A DNA stretch of 43,902 bases, from assembly GCF_014859555.1 (NCBI RefSeq), contig NZ_JACUTY010000013.1, forward strand, positions 1 to 43,902. The letters are read 5' to 3'. Position 1 is the first letter of the stretch. Each line of letters starts with the position of its first letter. The DNA is from Thiomicrospira sp. GTDB taxonomy: Bacteria > Pseudomonadota > Gammaproteobacteria > Thiomicrospirales > Thiomicrospiraceae. A program made the translations under genes and the position numbers. The notes under the pieces were generated by a model, which had not been told where the DNA came from, ran no database searches, and saw only the letters and a list, made by a program, of their open reading frames with translations. Of the stretch, positions 11,751 to 35,339 are shown in pieces.

Positions 11751-12860
11751 TTATAAACGCATCGGCATAATCACATGTTGACAAGACAGGGTTTCAAACT
11801 CGGCCGATACTAAACAACTACTGCTGCTGTCTTTCAAGCTCAAGGTGATGCAATCATCTTTAACCGAGTTAATCACATCAAGTAAGTAACTCACATTAAA
11901 ACCAATTTCAATTTTATCGCCTTGGTAGTCAATCGCCATATCTTCATGCGACTCATCTTGCTCACTATTTTGCGCATGTACGGTCAATAAATTCTGGTCC
12001 AATACCATGCGTACGCCTTTAAAGCGCTCGTTAGACAAAATAGCCGAACGTTGCAAAATCGCTTTCAGTAGTTCATGATCCGTTTGCACAAACACATCAT
12101 TATTCTGCGGAATGACTCGACGATAATCTGGATAACGACCATCAATTAATTTACAGGTAAACACCGTGTCCAAAAACTGTACCGTTAAATAGTTTTTGGC
12201 CAATGAAATCTGAATTTCTTCATCTTGATCAACTAAAAGCTTGGTCAATTCCATAATGGCTTTACGCGGCACAATGGCTTGGGTTGGTGTCAACTCACCA
12301 AAATCGGCCTCTAGTGCACAGGTTGATAGGCGGTGGCCATCGGTGGCCACTAAACGTAACCCACTCGAACTAATATCGAACAACATACCGTTTAAATAAA
12401 ACCGTACATCCTGACTGGCCATAGAAAAACTGCAGTGCTGAATCAATTGTTTAAACTGACCCTGCATCAAACGTAATCCGAGTTGGGCTTGCGTTAAGTC
12501 TATATGTGGATAATCTGCACCGGGTAAGGTGGAAAGCTTAAAAGAAGAACGTCCCGCTTTAACTGTACAACGAACCTCATCAAATTCAAGCGTGACTAAT
12601 ACACCATCGGGCAAGGATCGCACAATGGTTAATAACTTCTGAGCCGGTAATGTAATATCAAACACCTCACCTTCGACTTGCTCAAGCTCGGTTTGCGAAC
12701 GCGTTTCAATTTCTAAGTCCGAGCCCGTCACAATCAAAAAGGATTGTGACACTTGAAATAAAAAATTGCCTAAAATGGGCATGGTTTGACGTTTCTCAAC
12801 CACACCAGCCACGGTTTGAAGGGCTTTTAGGAGGTTTTCACGTTTCAAGGTCAATTTCAT
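11751..12860 (-). CDS. dnaN: DNA polymerase III beta sliding clamp DnaN
   Basis: This 369-residue ring-forming clamp tethers polymerase III to DNA. The N-terminal MKLTLKRENLLKALQTVAGVVEKRQTMPILGN pattern (split across the start), the repeated three-domain clamp fold and the C-terminal CQHVIMPMRL, with the hydrophobic-pocket MPMRL end, are diagnostic. It lies ten bases after dnaA, and GAGG overlapping the dnaA stop serves as its ribosome binding site. It does not continue into recF as in many gammaproteobacteria; recF lies 5 kb away on the other strand. Confidence 0.98.
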   Translation of the reverse strand: MKLTLKRENLLKALQTVAGVVEKRQTMPILGNFLFQVSQSFLIVTGSDLEIETRSQTELEQVEGEVFDITLPAQKLLTIVRSLPDGVLVTLEFDEVRCTVKAGRSSFKLSTLPGADYPHIDLTQAQLGLRLMQGQFKQLIQHCSFSMASQDVRFYLNGMLFDISSSGLRLVATDGHRLSTCALEADFGELTPTQAIVPRKAIMELTKLLVDQDEEIQISLAKNYLTVQFLDTVFTCKLIDGRYPDYRRVIPQNNDVFVQTDHELLKAILQRSAILSNERFKGVRMVLDQNLLTVHAQNSEQDESHEDMAIDYQGDKIEIGFNVSYLLDVINSVKDDCITLSLKDSSSSCLVSAEFETLSCQHVIMPMRL

Positions 12861-12870
12861 CTTAACAGCC

Positions 12871-14232
12871 TCAAGAAGTTATAATTCGAATTAGTTTGTT
12901 AAAGTCTTCATCCATTCGATGATCGGTTTCGCGCAATTCTTTTATTTTGCGAACCGCATGTAATACGGTGGTATGGTCACGACCACCAAAAGCATCGCCA
13001 ATTTCGGGCAAACTATGATGGGTTAATTCCTTTGCTAAAGCCATCGCTACCTGGCGGGGTCTGGCTACATTGCGAGTACGGCGTTTAGAAAGCATATCGG
13101 CCACACGCAACTTAAAATAATCCGCTACGGTTTTTTGTATATTTTCCAGCGTAACCATTTTTTGTTGCAATGCGAGTAGGTCTTTAAGTGCCTCTTTAAC
13201 CATTTCCACACTCAAAGATCTCTGAGTAAACTGGGCAAAGGCAACGACGCGCTTAAGTGCGCCTTCGAGTTCACGCACATTTCCACGTAAGCGCTTGGCA
13301 ATAAAAAAAGCCACGTCTTCAGGTAAAGCAAAACCCGCTTCGTTGGCTTTTTTCATTAATATTGCAACCCGCATCTCAAACTCTGGCGGCTCAACCGCTA
13401 TCGTCAACCCCCAACCAAAGCGTGATTTCAAGCGGTCTTCTAAACCATCCACTTCTTTTGGAAAACGGTCAGAAGTGAGGATAACCTGCTTATTACCTTC
13501 TAGCAAGGTATTAAACGTATGGAAAAACTCTTCTTGAGATTGCTCTTTATTCGCAAAAAACTGGATATCATCGATCAATAAAGCATCCAGTGACCGATAA
13601 AACCGTTTGAAATCTTCAATTTTATTATGACGCAGTGCGTTGACCATATCGGCTACAAAACTTTCAGAGTGTAAATAAACGACACGAGCCTGTGGGTTTT
13701 TTTCAATCAATGCATTACCAATTGCGTGCATTAAATGCGTTTTACCCAAACCGACGCCACCATAAATAAAGAAGGGGTTGTAGCTACCACCAGGGTTATC
13801 GGCTACTTGACGTGCCGCGGCGGCGGCGAGTTGGTTAGCTTTACCTTCAACAAAATTGTCAAACGTGTAATTAGGATTAAGTTTGTGCTTAATGGTTTTT
13901 TTATTCGGATCAATTTTAGATGATGTTTCTGATTGAATCGGTTGTTGTAAAGGCTGTGGAACCCTTGGTTCTGGCTCAGGTGCTTGGGTATCGTATTCAC
14001 CGATTTCTAACCGCACCTGAGGTGGGTTATGTGGCACGACCTTATGAACGGCTTCACGAATATTGCTCATCAGCTTACGATTTACCCAATCCAAAATGAA
14101 GGGGGTAGGCGCTAATAAACGAATCACGGATTCTTCTTCAATGACTTTTAAAGGGCGTATCCAGCTGTGAAACTGCTGTTCATTTAGATCATTCTCTAAG
14201 AACTTTAGACTTTGCGACCACAAATGACTCAA
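12871..14232 (-). CDS. dnaA: Chromosomal replication initiator DnaA
   Basis: This AAA+ initiator binds DnaA boxes and opens oriC. It shows domain I ([24 protein letters not shown]), a Pro/Gln-rich linker around residues 85-120, the [15 protein letters not shown] start of domain III, Walker [10 protein letters not shown] near residue 160, Walker B LLIDDIQF, and the domain IV signature [15 protein letters not shown]. No ATG is available. GAGGAG (14246-14241) has ideal eight-base spacing to a TTG at 14232, giving 453 residues beginning (M)SHLW. The GTG at 14241 overlaps that ribosome binding site and is less likely. A DnaA box lies in the presumed promoter, which suggests autoregulation. Confidence 0.97.
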
Positions 14233-14312
14233 AACACACACTCCTCAAATTAAGCTTGATCGACCAACCCAAAACACTAATAAATTTAGGGCTTAATCTT
14301 ATATTTGAACCG

Positions 14313-14329
14313 ATTATACCTGTGAATAA
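14313..14329 (-). promoter_or_regulatory. dnaA promoter -10 with adjacent DnaA box
   Basis: On the minus strand TATAAT (14318-14313) is a perfect -10 about 80 bases from the dnaA start. The DnaA box TTATTCACA lies two bases upstream of it, between -10 and -35, so bound DnaA would block RNA polymerase. The -35 match is weak. Confidence 0.55.
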
Positions 14330-14350
14330 CTTTTAAAAACAGAGCAGACC

Positions 14351-14359
14351 TGTGGATAA
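14351..14359 (-). promoter_or_regulatory. DnaA box (perfect)
   Basis: TTATCCACA read on the minus strand, 30 bases from the box at 14321 and 24 from the box at 14375. Confidence 0.85.
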
Positions 14360-14374
14360 GTCCATCTGAAACTC

Positions 14375-14383
14375 TGTGGATAA
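14375..14383 (-). promoter_or_regulatory. DnaA box (perfect)
   Basis: Second perfect TTATCCACA on the minus strand, immediately beside the AT-rich stretch. Confidence 0.85.
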
Positions 14384-32800: not shown

Positions 32801-33364
32801 TTAAGGATAGGATTTTGTTACTTGAGATAAAGGTTGGCGTTGCGACTCTGGAATGCATTGCGGATAGCCAATATACAAAATCCCAACTAACTCAATTTCA
32901 GCTGAATTCAAGCCTAATAACTCATACGTTTCGCAAGCATTAATAACCGGACCAGTACTCCACTGAACACCTAAACCTTGTTCCCAGGCGGCTAATTGAA
33001 AGTTTTGAATGGCACAAGCGCAAGCCGCATAATCTTCCTTTGATTTTACTGAATCTATACTACGAACTTGACCTAACATAATGATTTGAGGGTTAGCCTT
33101 AAATCGATCACAGGCTTTTAAAAATATCGATTTGTGTTCTTCTGTGCCAGGCAAAGCACGTTTATCAGCGCGAAGCTTGGCATAAAGATGCATTAATTTT
33201 TGTTGAGTCTGATGACCTATAATATAAAATCGCCAGGGTTGGGTTAAACCATGGTTAGGCGCCCAAATAGCCGCTTCTAAACACTGATTTAACAACTCAG
33301 AATCGACTTTACGATCAATGAATTGATAAATTGTACGTCTTTGTTGCGCAAGTTCTAAAAACAT
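32801..33364 (-). CDS. Nitroreductase family flavoprotein
   Basis: This 187-residue flavoprotein is of the nitroreductase superfamily, YdjA-like by size. The N-terminal RRTIYQF and AIWAPNHGLTQPWRFYII contact FMN in this family, and GLGVQWSTGP with LVGILYIGYPQ forms the second conserved half. Members reduce nitro compounds, quinones or enones with NAD(P)H; the natural substrate is unknown. Divergent from oxyR across a dyad-rich 317-base region, so peroxide or redox control is possible. Confidence 0.88.
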   Translation of the reverse strand: MFLELAQQRRTIYQFIDRKVDSELLNQCLEAAIWAPNHGLTQPWRFYIIGHQTQQKLMHLYAKLRADKRALPGTEEHKSIFLKACDRFKANPQIIMLGQVRSIDSVKSKEDYAACACAIQNFQLAAWEQGLGVQWSTGPVINACETYELLGLNSAEIELVGILYIGYPQCIPESQRQPLSQVTKSYP

Positions 33365-33681
33365 AAAAGCCTCATAAAAATAAGTTTAAAGATTGGGCAG
33401 CTCGATTGTCTAACAGATAACATTTGAGCGCAAGCCAACAAGTTGGCTAACAAGGTGTGCACAACTGGGGATAAGTTTAAGGTTTCTATAAAACTAAAAT
33501 GTTATCCACAATTGGTGCACACCTCATACAAACGAAGCACCCCCAGTTCTTAGACAGCTTAATAACAGATCAACCTATTGTTTTATAAATAAAAATTCAG
33601 GTTATACGTTTTATTAGCCTACACAATAAAAACAAAGAAAAAGAAAACAAAAAAAACTAAACACTTTATAGGGATAACTTT
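33365..33681. other. Intergenic region with nested inverted repeats and a DnaA box
   Basis: This 317-base gap between the nitroreductase gene and oxyR has no plausible gene. It holds a dyad AGCCAAC-AA-GTTGGCT (33433-33448); a larger inverted repeat whose arms are AGGTGTGCAC (about 33453-33462) and GTGCACACCT (about 33515-33525), continuing inward through near-matching GGGGATAAG and TTATCCACA; and AACTGGGG (33463-33470) matched by CCCCAGTT (33541-33548). The remainder (33560-33680) is A-rich leader. A role as operator for the divergent genes or a DnaA-binding locus is inferred. Confidence 0.5.
33502..33510 (+). promoter_or_regulatory. Perfect DnaA box away from oriC
   Basis: TTATCCACA lies in one arm of the large inverted repeat; the opposite arm has TGGGGATAA (33466-33474), which is one base away from a DnaA box in the other orientation. 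Confidence 0.55.
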
Positions 33682-34602
33682 ATGACGCTTAATGAGCTCA
33701 AATATATCGTCGCACTAGCCAAACAACGCCATTTTCGTAAAGCGTCAGAAGTTTGTTTTGTCAGCCAACCTACTTTAAGTATTGCGATAAAAAAATTCGA
33801 GCAAGAACTAGGTATTACATTATTCGAACGACATAAATCTGAAATTATCATTACACCAGTTGGTGAAGAAATTATCAGACTAGCAGAAGACATTTTGCAA
33901 AAAAGCCAACTCATCAAACAAATAGCGCAAGAAGAACAAGGAGACCATAGTGGTGAACTTAGGGTTGGCGCAATTTATACGATTGCCCCATATTTATTGC
34001 CTAAATTGATACCCGAGTTTCATCAACTAGCTCCTAAAATTCCGTTTATTCTGCAAGAAAATTACACCGTAAATTTAATCGATAAACTTAGAAATGGTGA
34101 ATTAGACGTCGCGATTTTATCGCTGCCTTTTAGTGATCCACATATTGAAACTTTAGAACTCTATGAAGAACCGTTTGTGGTGGCTTTACCAAATGATCAT
34201 CACCTCGCTAACAAATCTAAACTTAGCCTAGTAGATCTTGAACAAGAAACTCTTTTACTGTTAGGTGCCGGACATTGTTTTAGAGATCAGGTAGTCGATG
34301 CGTTTCCAAACTTAAATCACTTAAATTTACAAACCAATCAACTCCAACGAACTTTGGAAGGCAGTTCATTAGAAACCATTCGTTTTATGGTTGGTTCTGG
34401 AGCCGGTATCACCATTCTGCCTTGCAGTTCGCTTAATACACACGACGCCGACTTATTTACCGTTAAAGAAATAGAGTCAACTCTATTATCTCGCACAGTT
34501 GTGTTAGCTTGGCGTAAGAGTTTTCCACGTAAACAAGTTCTAGAAACCTTAAAATTGGCACTTAACAACATTCAAATTGCTTGTACAATAAAGAAACACT
34601 AA
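33682..34602 (+). CDS. oxyR: OxyR-like LysR-family regulator lacking the second redox cysteine
   Basis: This 306-residue LysR-type regulator is closest to OxyR, the peroxide sensor. The N-terminal helix-turn-helix reads HFRKASEVCFVSQPTLSIAI with the conserved Cys25. The sensing loop has Cys199 in GHCFRDQ, at the same numbering as E. coli, and the downstream SLETIRFMVGSGAGITILP block is typical. However, position 208, the partner cysteine, is Phe (TTT, one base from TGT), so the usual 199-208 disulfide cannot form. Other cysteines (in ILPCSS and IACTIK) lie far away in sequence. It may sense peroxide by sulfenic acid or with another partner, or be degenerate. Confidence 0.85.
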   Translation: MTLNELKYIVALAKQRHFRKASEVCFVSQPTLSIAIKKFEQELGITLFERHKSEIIITPVGEEIIRLAEDILQKSQLIKQIAQEEQGDHSGELRVGAIYTIAPYLLPKLIPEFHQLAPKIPFILQENYTVNLIDKLRNGELDVAILSLPFSDPHIETLELYEEPFVVALPNDHHLANKSKLSLVDLEQETLLLLGAGHCFRDQVVDAFPNLNHLNLQTNQLQRTLEGSSLETIRFMVGSGAGITILPCSSLNTHDADLFTVKEIESTLLSRTVVLAWRKSFPRKQVLETLKLALNNIQIACTIKKH

Positions 34603-34616
34603 TTGTACGAATTATT

Positions 34617-35339
34617 ATGAAATACACCAAAACTACCTTATTAGCATGTTTATGCATTTTATTTTCTTCTACTTCATCCGCGCAAATGAATACCGAGGAT
34701 CCTTATGAATCCTTTAATCGTTCAATGTTTGAATTTAACCTAGCATTTCATGATTTAGTAGGGGAACCAGTCGGTAAATCTTATAAAAAATATGTACCTC
34801 GACCAGCAAGAACAGGTATTCATAATTTTTTTATAAATTTAAGAATGCCATTAAACATGACAAATAATTTGCTACAAGGCAAAGTTGAACGCGGTTTAGC
34901 TGACTTTATGCGGTTTACGATTAACACCGTATTTGGTTTCGGTGGCTTGTTAGATATTGCAACACCGGCTGGTTTACCTTATGAAAAAGAAGATTTTGGC
35001 CAAACACTTTATAAATGGGGTTTATGGAAAGAATCCTCTTTTGTTGTGCTTCCAGTTGTGGGTGGTTTCACATTTCGTGAATTAGCTGGAGCAGGCATTG
35101 ATGCCAGTTACAATCCAACCTATAGCCATATAATCCAAACCGATTTGGAAGGCCGCACTAAAATTTTGGTCGTTGATCAATTTGATAACTATATCCAATT
35201 TATGGATTTGATCGATACCGTCAGGGATTCTTATGATCCGTATATTTTTTATCGTGAAAGTTATTTACAATACCGAAATAACTTAATTTATGATGGCAAA
35301 CCACCTCAACCTGATCTTGATGATTTTGATTTCAATTAA
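34617..35339 (+). CDS. mlaA: MlaA (VacJ) phospholipid-asymmetry protein
   Basis: This 240-residue outer-membrane protein is of the MlaA/VacJ family, which removes misplaced phospholipids from the outer leaflet and passes them to MlaC. The motif DPYESFNRSMFEFN follows the signal peptide, with NNLLQGKVERGLADFMRFTINTVFGFGGLLDIA-type core and DFGQTLYKWGL. Most MlaA proteins are lipoproteins. Here Cys residues sit in the hydrophobic core (LLACLC) and SSA-Q looks like an ordinary cleavage site, so lipidation is uncertain. An in-frame codon at 34581 lies inside oxyR and is rejected. mnmE follows after three bases. Confidence 0.92.
   Translation: MKYTKTTLLACLCILFSSTSSAQMNTEDPYESFNRSMFEFNLAFHDLVGEPVGKSYKKYVPRPARTGIHNFFINLRMPLNMTNNLLQGKVERGLADFMRFTINTVFGFGGLLDIATPAGLPYEKEDFGQTLYKWGLWKESSFVVLPVVGGFTFRELAGAGIDASYNPTYSHIIQTDLEGRTKILVVDQFDNYIQFMDLIDTVRDSYDPYIFYRESYLQYRNNLIYDGKPPQPDLDDFDFN

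Follow-up and report, generated by a model that had tools for sequence, protein, structure and literature searches.

Does a regulator that keeps the peroxidatic cysteine of OxyR and has lost the resolving one still work as an OxyR? The window, a 43,902-nucleotide stretch of DNA from Thiomicrospira sp., raises this question with an intact ORF on its forward strand (33682..34602, ATG start) coding for a 306-residue OxyR-like protein. In an ordinary OxyR, C199 is converted to a sulfenic acid, which C208 then traps; in this protein the former reaction would be kept and the latter would be impossible. The loop reads GHC-FRDQVVDA-F-P, with the peroxidatic Cys199 encoded by TGT (34276..34278, forward strand) and Phe replacing the resolving cysteine at residue 208, encoded by TTT (34303..34305, forward strand). 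The original prediction of Cys199 with Phe208 in an otherwise intact OxyR-like protein is borne out by the codons, the whole ORF and the OxyR-grade matches, as is its deduction that the usual C199-C208 disulfide cannot form; it named the TTT codon correctly and placed it one base off, at 34302-34304. A sequencing error at this codon, a possibility it had raised, is ruled out because the same TGT and TTT codons stand at 199 and 208 in both of the nearest relatives (89% and 78% identical). "One-cysteine OxyR" is a misnomer, since the protein has four cysteines, and those at positions 25 (33754..33756, in the DNA-binding domain), 248 (34423..34425, in LPCSS) and 301 (34582..34584, close to the C terminus), all encoded on the forward strand, are conserved in the family as well.

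Among regulators, the protein is nearest to OxyR by sequence and by fold. Pfam HTH_1 and LysR_substrate are both found above cut-off, as expected for a LysR protein with HTH and substrate domains. The best NCBIfam model is OxyR, first among the 50 models matched; its 224.6 bits lie below the equivalog cut-off of 329 bits, which is not decisive because three two-Cys OxyRs of other genera (Paraburkholderia, Thioalkalivibrio and Alcaligenes; 249.7-270 bits) miss it too. The top ten PDB chains by sequence are OxyR entries, 3jv9 among them being named via VIA. An AlphaFold (AF2) model (mean pLDDT 86.5, pTM 0.67), built on 47 mostly two-Cys sequences and poor at residues 211-220 (mean pLDDT 49), aligns best in VIA with OxyR of N. 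meningitidis (Z 27.8, 2.1 Å over 213 residues) and of P. aeruginosa (Z 25.6, 5.2 Å over 292 residues). The NCBIfam ranking, the PDB chains and the fold matches together rule out a different LysR subgroup, the other objection foreseen in the original prediction. A pseudogene is ruled out by the intact ORF and by the codon differences from the nearest relative (89% identical), which number 29, 11 and 137 at positions 1, 2 and 3; this third-position bias indicates that oxyR is under purifying selection. The gene is the sole strong match in its own genome, where no second, two-Cys OxyR was found and the other three LysR matches are only 24-28% identical.

The protein shares domain layout, fold and peroxidatic pocket with the two-Cys OxyRs of E. 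coli, P. aeruginosa (4x6g/4y0m) and N. meningitidis (3jv9), and its relatives share their operator class, but it falls outside the classical two-Cys type because Phe208 replaces C208 and no C199-C208 disulfide is available. The comparison with the one-cysteine OxyR of Deinococcus radiodurans (DR0615), put forward in the original prediction, turns out to be reversed. DR0615, too, is an OxyR-like LysR protein in which just one of the two redox positions is filled; in the portions of the sources available, its single C210 is given as the counterpart of C208 (PMC2881104) and T201C as the missing cysteine put back (PMC2225504). It is the mirror image of the window protein, which keeps C199 and three other cysteines and, with Phe at 208, is not of the Deinococcus type, whose only cysteine sits at the C208-equivalent. 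The open-licence PMC literature searched yielded no account of a natural OxyR lineage with C199 only.

The trait extends well beyond the window. The family, Thiomicrospiraceae, comprises 62 genomes (in the genome set also the whole order), 58 of them with an OxyR-grade match at E <= 1e-40, and in 55 of these 58 Cys199 is accompanied at 208 by Phe, Tyr, Leu or Ile. The best gene is one orthologue, mostly syntenic, in 51 family genomes; every copy has C199 and none has C208 (Tyr in 25, Phe in 23, Leu in 3), an outcome of the proposed orthologue alignment that agrees with the original reading. The 51 rows form one clade in a quick tree (support 98), and 49 of the clade's 51 genomes have no OxyR-grade match besides the C199-only gene. 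To judge from alignment and tree, this is a real, conserved OxyR variant throughout nearly all of the sampled family, best explained by an exchange of C208 for a bulky side chain, hydrophobic or aromatic, in the common ancestor of the main clade. In four g2 genomes the gene is more distant and lacks the usual neighbours (F, I, I and F at 208); it branches apart from the 51-row clade, and C208 was therefore probably lost independently in g2. One of the 51 orthologues (L045, G035:C76) contains two TAG and one TAA within the match, indicating a broken copy or an assembly error. A canonical two-Cys OxyR, 34-37% identical, occurs in five g6 genomes (L059-L063, from G038, G044, G040, G045 and G046, respectively). 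In G044-G046 it is the only OxyR-grade match (34-36% identity), and G038 and G040 have both this gene and the C199-only one.

The gene neighbourhood is well kept. A divergent nitroreductase-like gene (32801..33364, reverse strand) and a downstream mlaA/vacJ-like gene (34617..35339, forward strand; start taken as the ATG at 34617 and not the listed TTG at 34581), both named by inspection, are detected by tblastn in 45 and 50 of the 51 family loci, respectively. The nitroreductase was undetected beside oxyR in L044, L047, L051, L052 and L054; in L020 and L022 the contig ends near oxyR.

Outside the family Cys208 is the rule. The OxyR-grade search gave 191 matching genomes, 186 of them outside the family. 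A scan of contigs with the single window protein as query gave no matches and an alignment-based scan gave at least 588 confirmed loci, of which the best 80 were kept. The 162 outgroup rows combine 25 search loci, 59 fetched sequences (60, one identical) and 78 of these 80 loci. Cys208 is kept in 157 of these rows, mostly high-ranking matches and not a random sample; the others have F (3), Y (1) and S (1), and without one doubled gene (L142 = L184) the count is 156/161. Set against the 51 family rows, none with Cys208, this contrast is well beyond chance. The loop pattern with F/Y-P occurs in 10 of 370 genomes of the class, three in the family and seven outside (reversed control 0), an undercount because the pattern is blind to Leu, Ile and Ser at 208. 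The seven outside genomes belong to four families (f65, f116, f49 and f140), all within the OxyR-grade matches, and only three of them are in the tree (L183, L207 and L234). On this 222-row tree, position 208 requires 7 changes by parsimony. Among the genomes sampled, losing C208 while retaining C199 is thus rare but recurrent. Outside the family it turned up only in single sampled genera or single rows, whereas here it takes in nearly the whole family; by these counts it is not private to the window but a trait of nearly all the sampled family, with separate losses elsewhere.

Residues T100, T129, H198, C199, F200, R201, Q203 and R271 are identical in all 51 family rows, and T100, T129, H198, R201 and R271 are those that we take to form the peroxidatic pocket with C199. 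The substitution pattern points to an oxyR that is under selection with its peroxide-reactive pocket retained; this invariance after the loss of C208 speaks against a dead sensor, which one would expect to drift. Positions 19, 20, 71, 92, 245, 287 and 302 are family-specific; to all appearances they offer no obvious compensation for the missing cysteine.

What the protein might regulate was approached through ATAG-N7-CTAT, which we take to be the E. coli OxyR half-site pair. KatG is present in the window's genome (C132), where no PF10417 peroxiredoxin or PF03150 peroxidase match was found. KatG is also present in six other members of the genus; the two nearest relatives, G057 and G058, have no KatG match, G058 being only 83% complete. 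The regions upstream of ten katG genes were read: seven in the window's genus, the window's own genome among them, and three in g6. The exact pair lies within 300 nt upstream of katG in four of the ten (background 0.0033 per 300 nt on one strand), a looser three-block form drawn up after reading these sequences in seven (background 0.0004), and either form in eight; the backgrounds were computed on 20-kb stretches that are poorer in A and T than promoters are. Upstream of its own katG the window's genome shows no more than a near-match (12/16 positions, reached by shuffles too; 10/12, equalled in 7% of shuffles), and the g6 locus L301 has no significant operator match. A scan of the window's genome with the four-block E. 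coli operator gave 3 matches per strand versus 7 for the reversed-pattern control. The exact pair also precedes 12 of the 30 PF10417 peroxiredoxin genes fetched (loci L238-L267), at -122 to -163 (approximate distances, gene starts having been taken mechanically), and none of 12 PF03150 peroxidase genes. PRLN appears within the first 15 residues of eleven of the 12 peroxiredoxins with a site, and in the twelfth (L252) this stretch ends in FPR; those without the exact pair include all nine with an MSVLV start, three with PRLN and six with other or unclear starts. One of the 12 sites (L244) belongs to G035, where oxyR itself contains internal stops. These katG and peroxiredoxin operators occur in relatives whose only OxyR-grade match is the C199-only form, which is therefore probably a working regulator.

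Upstream of oxyR itself the picture differs from that of two-Cys OxyR. The exact pair precedes 4 of 60 oxyR loci, all two-Cys paralogues (L059-L062, of five), and is absent from the 51 family-clade loci (50 genomes, one twice) and the four g2 loci, so that the C199-only genes seem to lack autoregulation through ATAG-N7-CTAT. It is likewise absent from the intergenic region between the nitroreductase-like gene and oxyR in the window (33365..33681). A conserved element found there, considered as an OxyR operator and rejected, resembles instead an inverted DnaA-box pair, TGTGGATAA-N27-TTATCCACA, at 33466-33474 (one mismatch) and 33502-33510. In 39 of the 51 family loci (one genome twice) the pair departs from this pattern at no more than 2 of 18 positions; shuffles give means of about 7 to 8 mismatches and a lowest value of 3. 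In nine of nine relatives, GC skew over 20 kb turns from negative ahead of oxyR to positive beyond it; in eight of the nine, the kilobase with the lowest GC content within 40 kb falls at kb 18-20, on oxyR or next to it. The cumulative-skew minimum is within 1.3 kb of oxyR in only four of the nine, up to 7.6 kb off in the others and at 27.7 kb in the window; no exact DnaA box was found near oxyR in two of the nine (G053 and G061). The region upstream of oxyR may be the chromosome origin. The dnaN- and dnaA-like genes (11751-14383, named by inspection), about 19 kb from oxyR and with exact DnaA boxes at 14351 and 14375, may be a rival origin site or reflect dnaA autoregulation.

We favor as probable the hypothesis that the window gene encodes a functioning natural C199-only OxyR that would signal without the C199-C208 disulfide, either through modification of C199 or through a C199-C199' bond that joins two subunits. 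C199 would be attacked by peroxide or by a sulfane-sulfur species and would then carry the signal as a sulfenic acid, as a mixed disulfide, as a persulfide or in the form of an intersubunit C199-C199' disulfide. In the tetramer model described in the part of PMC2881104 available, C199 and C208 are near the dimer-dimer interface, where a C199-C199' bond or a C199 adduct could move the tetramer. The sensors HyPer and TriPer without C208 form disulfide-bonded, dimer-size species on H2O2 exposure, C199-SOH being resolved in trans (PMC5368998, in excerpt). In the relatives, such a regulator would most likely control katG and the peroxiredoxin gene. The residues, their conservation, the synteny and the operator motifs in relatives are observed; that C199 of this form is reactive, which form the signal takes, in which direction it regulates and that it binds these operators is what we infer.

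Laboratory mutants with the same 199/208 cysteine pattern respond poorly. In the sections of the sources available, N. meningitidis C208A represses catalase and does not activate it, and C199S does neither (PMC2881104); E. coli C208S loses polysulfide induction (PMC6831875); HyPer without C208 gives no optical signal (PMC5368998). The family would thus need either compensating changes or a locked regulator. Such mutants, N. meningitidis C208A, E. coli C208S and HyPer C208S, carry Ala or Ser at 208 in two-Cys proteins without the family's other substitutions. The locked regulator, which we regard as rather unlikely, is a protein that would bind the same operators without switching on peroxide, as a constitutive repressor or activator of katG/prx. 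The behavior of Neisseria C208A fits it, and an aromatic side chain at 208 could hold the loop in the reduced form. Helices 201-207 and 209-217 of the AF2 model flank residue 208 and resemble those around C208 in the reduced N. meningitidis structure, but a model made from mostly two-Cys sequences, with a mean pLDDT of 49 over residues 211-220, says little about the switch. Against a redox-dead regulator stands the invariance of C199 and its pocket, which would be needless unless C199 were structural, as it could be given that Neisseria C199S loses repression in the excerpt available (PMC2881104).

The remaining cysteines could offer other ways of handling an oxidized C199. C248 and C301 are both present in 50 of the 51 family rows and both absent from one; the 162 outgroup rows have both in 51, neither in 105, only C248 in 5 (4 without the doubled row) and only C301 in 1. 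In the outgroup this co-variation is strong (Fisher p 4e-35, or 6e-36 without the doubled row) in a test that ignores relatedness; on the tree, 7 supported independent pairs show about 5 changes together, 0 opposite and 2 unmatched (median p 0.0625). Most family rows have C-T at 301-302 (47 of 51 have the T), in a C-terminal tail that varies elsewhere. On the simplest view, C248 and C301 would make a disulfide or another contact linking the tail to the end of strand 243-247; no mention of this pair was found in the open-licence PMC literature searched. C248 or C301, or both in relay, might instead resolve C199-SOH in place of C208, a proposal for which the joint presence in the family and the strong co-variation could speak and which we nevertheless judge improbable. 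The pair is older than the loss, since 50 of the 51 outgroup rows that carry it also have C208, and it is not needed for a C199-only OxyR, since L043 and the four g2 rows lack both C208 and the pair. Further, the tree test falls short of p 0.05, no association of C208 loss with C248 was found on the tree, and the C-terminal C305 of N. meningitidis OxyR is placed on the face opposite C199 in the available part of PMC2881104.

A sulfur-oxidizing way of life might give C199 another role. The window's genus includes a Thiomicrospira (L095), a genus of sulfur oxidizers, as are Thioalkalivibrio, Sedimenticola and Sulfuricella. Loss of C208 might suit cells rich in sulfane sulfur, with persulfidation of C199 as the main signal, and E. 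coli OxyR is indeed persulfidated at C199 (PMC6831875, in excerpt). This is very improbable in our view: rows of Thioalkalivibrio (L108, L112), Sedimenticola (L118, L151) and Sulfuricella (L119) keep C208, and in E. coli OxyR the C208S change abolishes the polysulfide response as well. C25, present in 49 of the 51 family rows, could in turn be the sensor, C199 being secondary. Mycobacterial OxyS, another LysR protein that regulates katG without switching through a C199-C208 pair, senses through Cys25 of its DNA-binding domain, which controls DNA binding under H2O2 (PMC3260234, in excerpt). OxyS is however a different LysR protein, and C25 is about equally conserved in the mostly two-Cys outgroup (152/162), which points to another cause; we give this idea hardly any credence.

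The preferred reading of a functioning C199-only OxyR can be widened to the family. In nearly all its members C199 alone may sense peroxide or sulfane sulfur, by being stably modified or by bonding to C199' across the interface of the tetramer, together with a co-evolved C248-C301 disulfide that would tie the C-terminal tail to the regulatory domain; we advance this larger proposal as tentative and on the doubtful side. The pair itself suggests a second thiol feature in OxyR. It has been disputed whether the switch of OxyR is the C199-C208 disulfide or a modification of C199 alone (PMC2881104 and PMC6831875, each in the part available). A natural C199-only clade with OxyR-type operators allows this question to be asked without engineered mutants and, if the proposal is true, the C199-C208 disulfide would be dispensable for OxyR signalling in nature.
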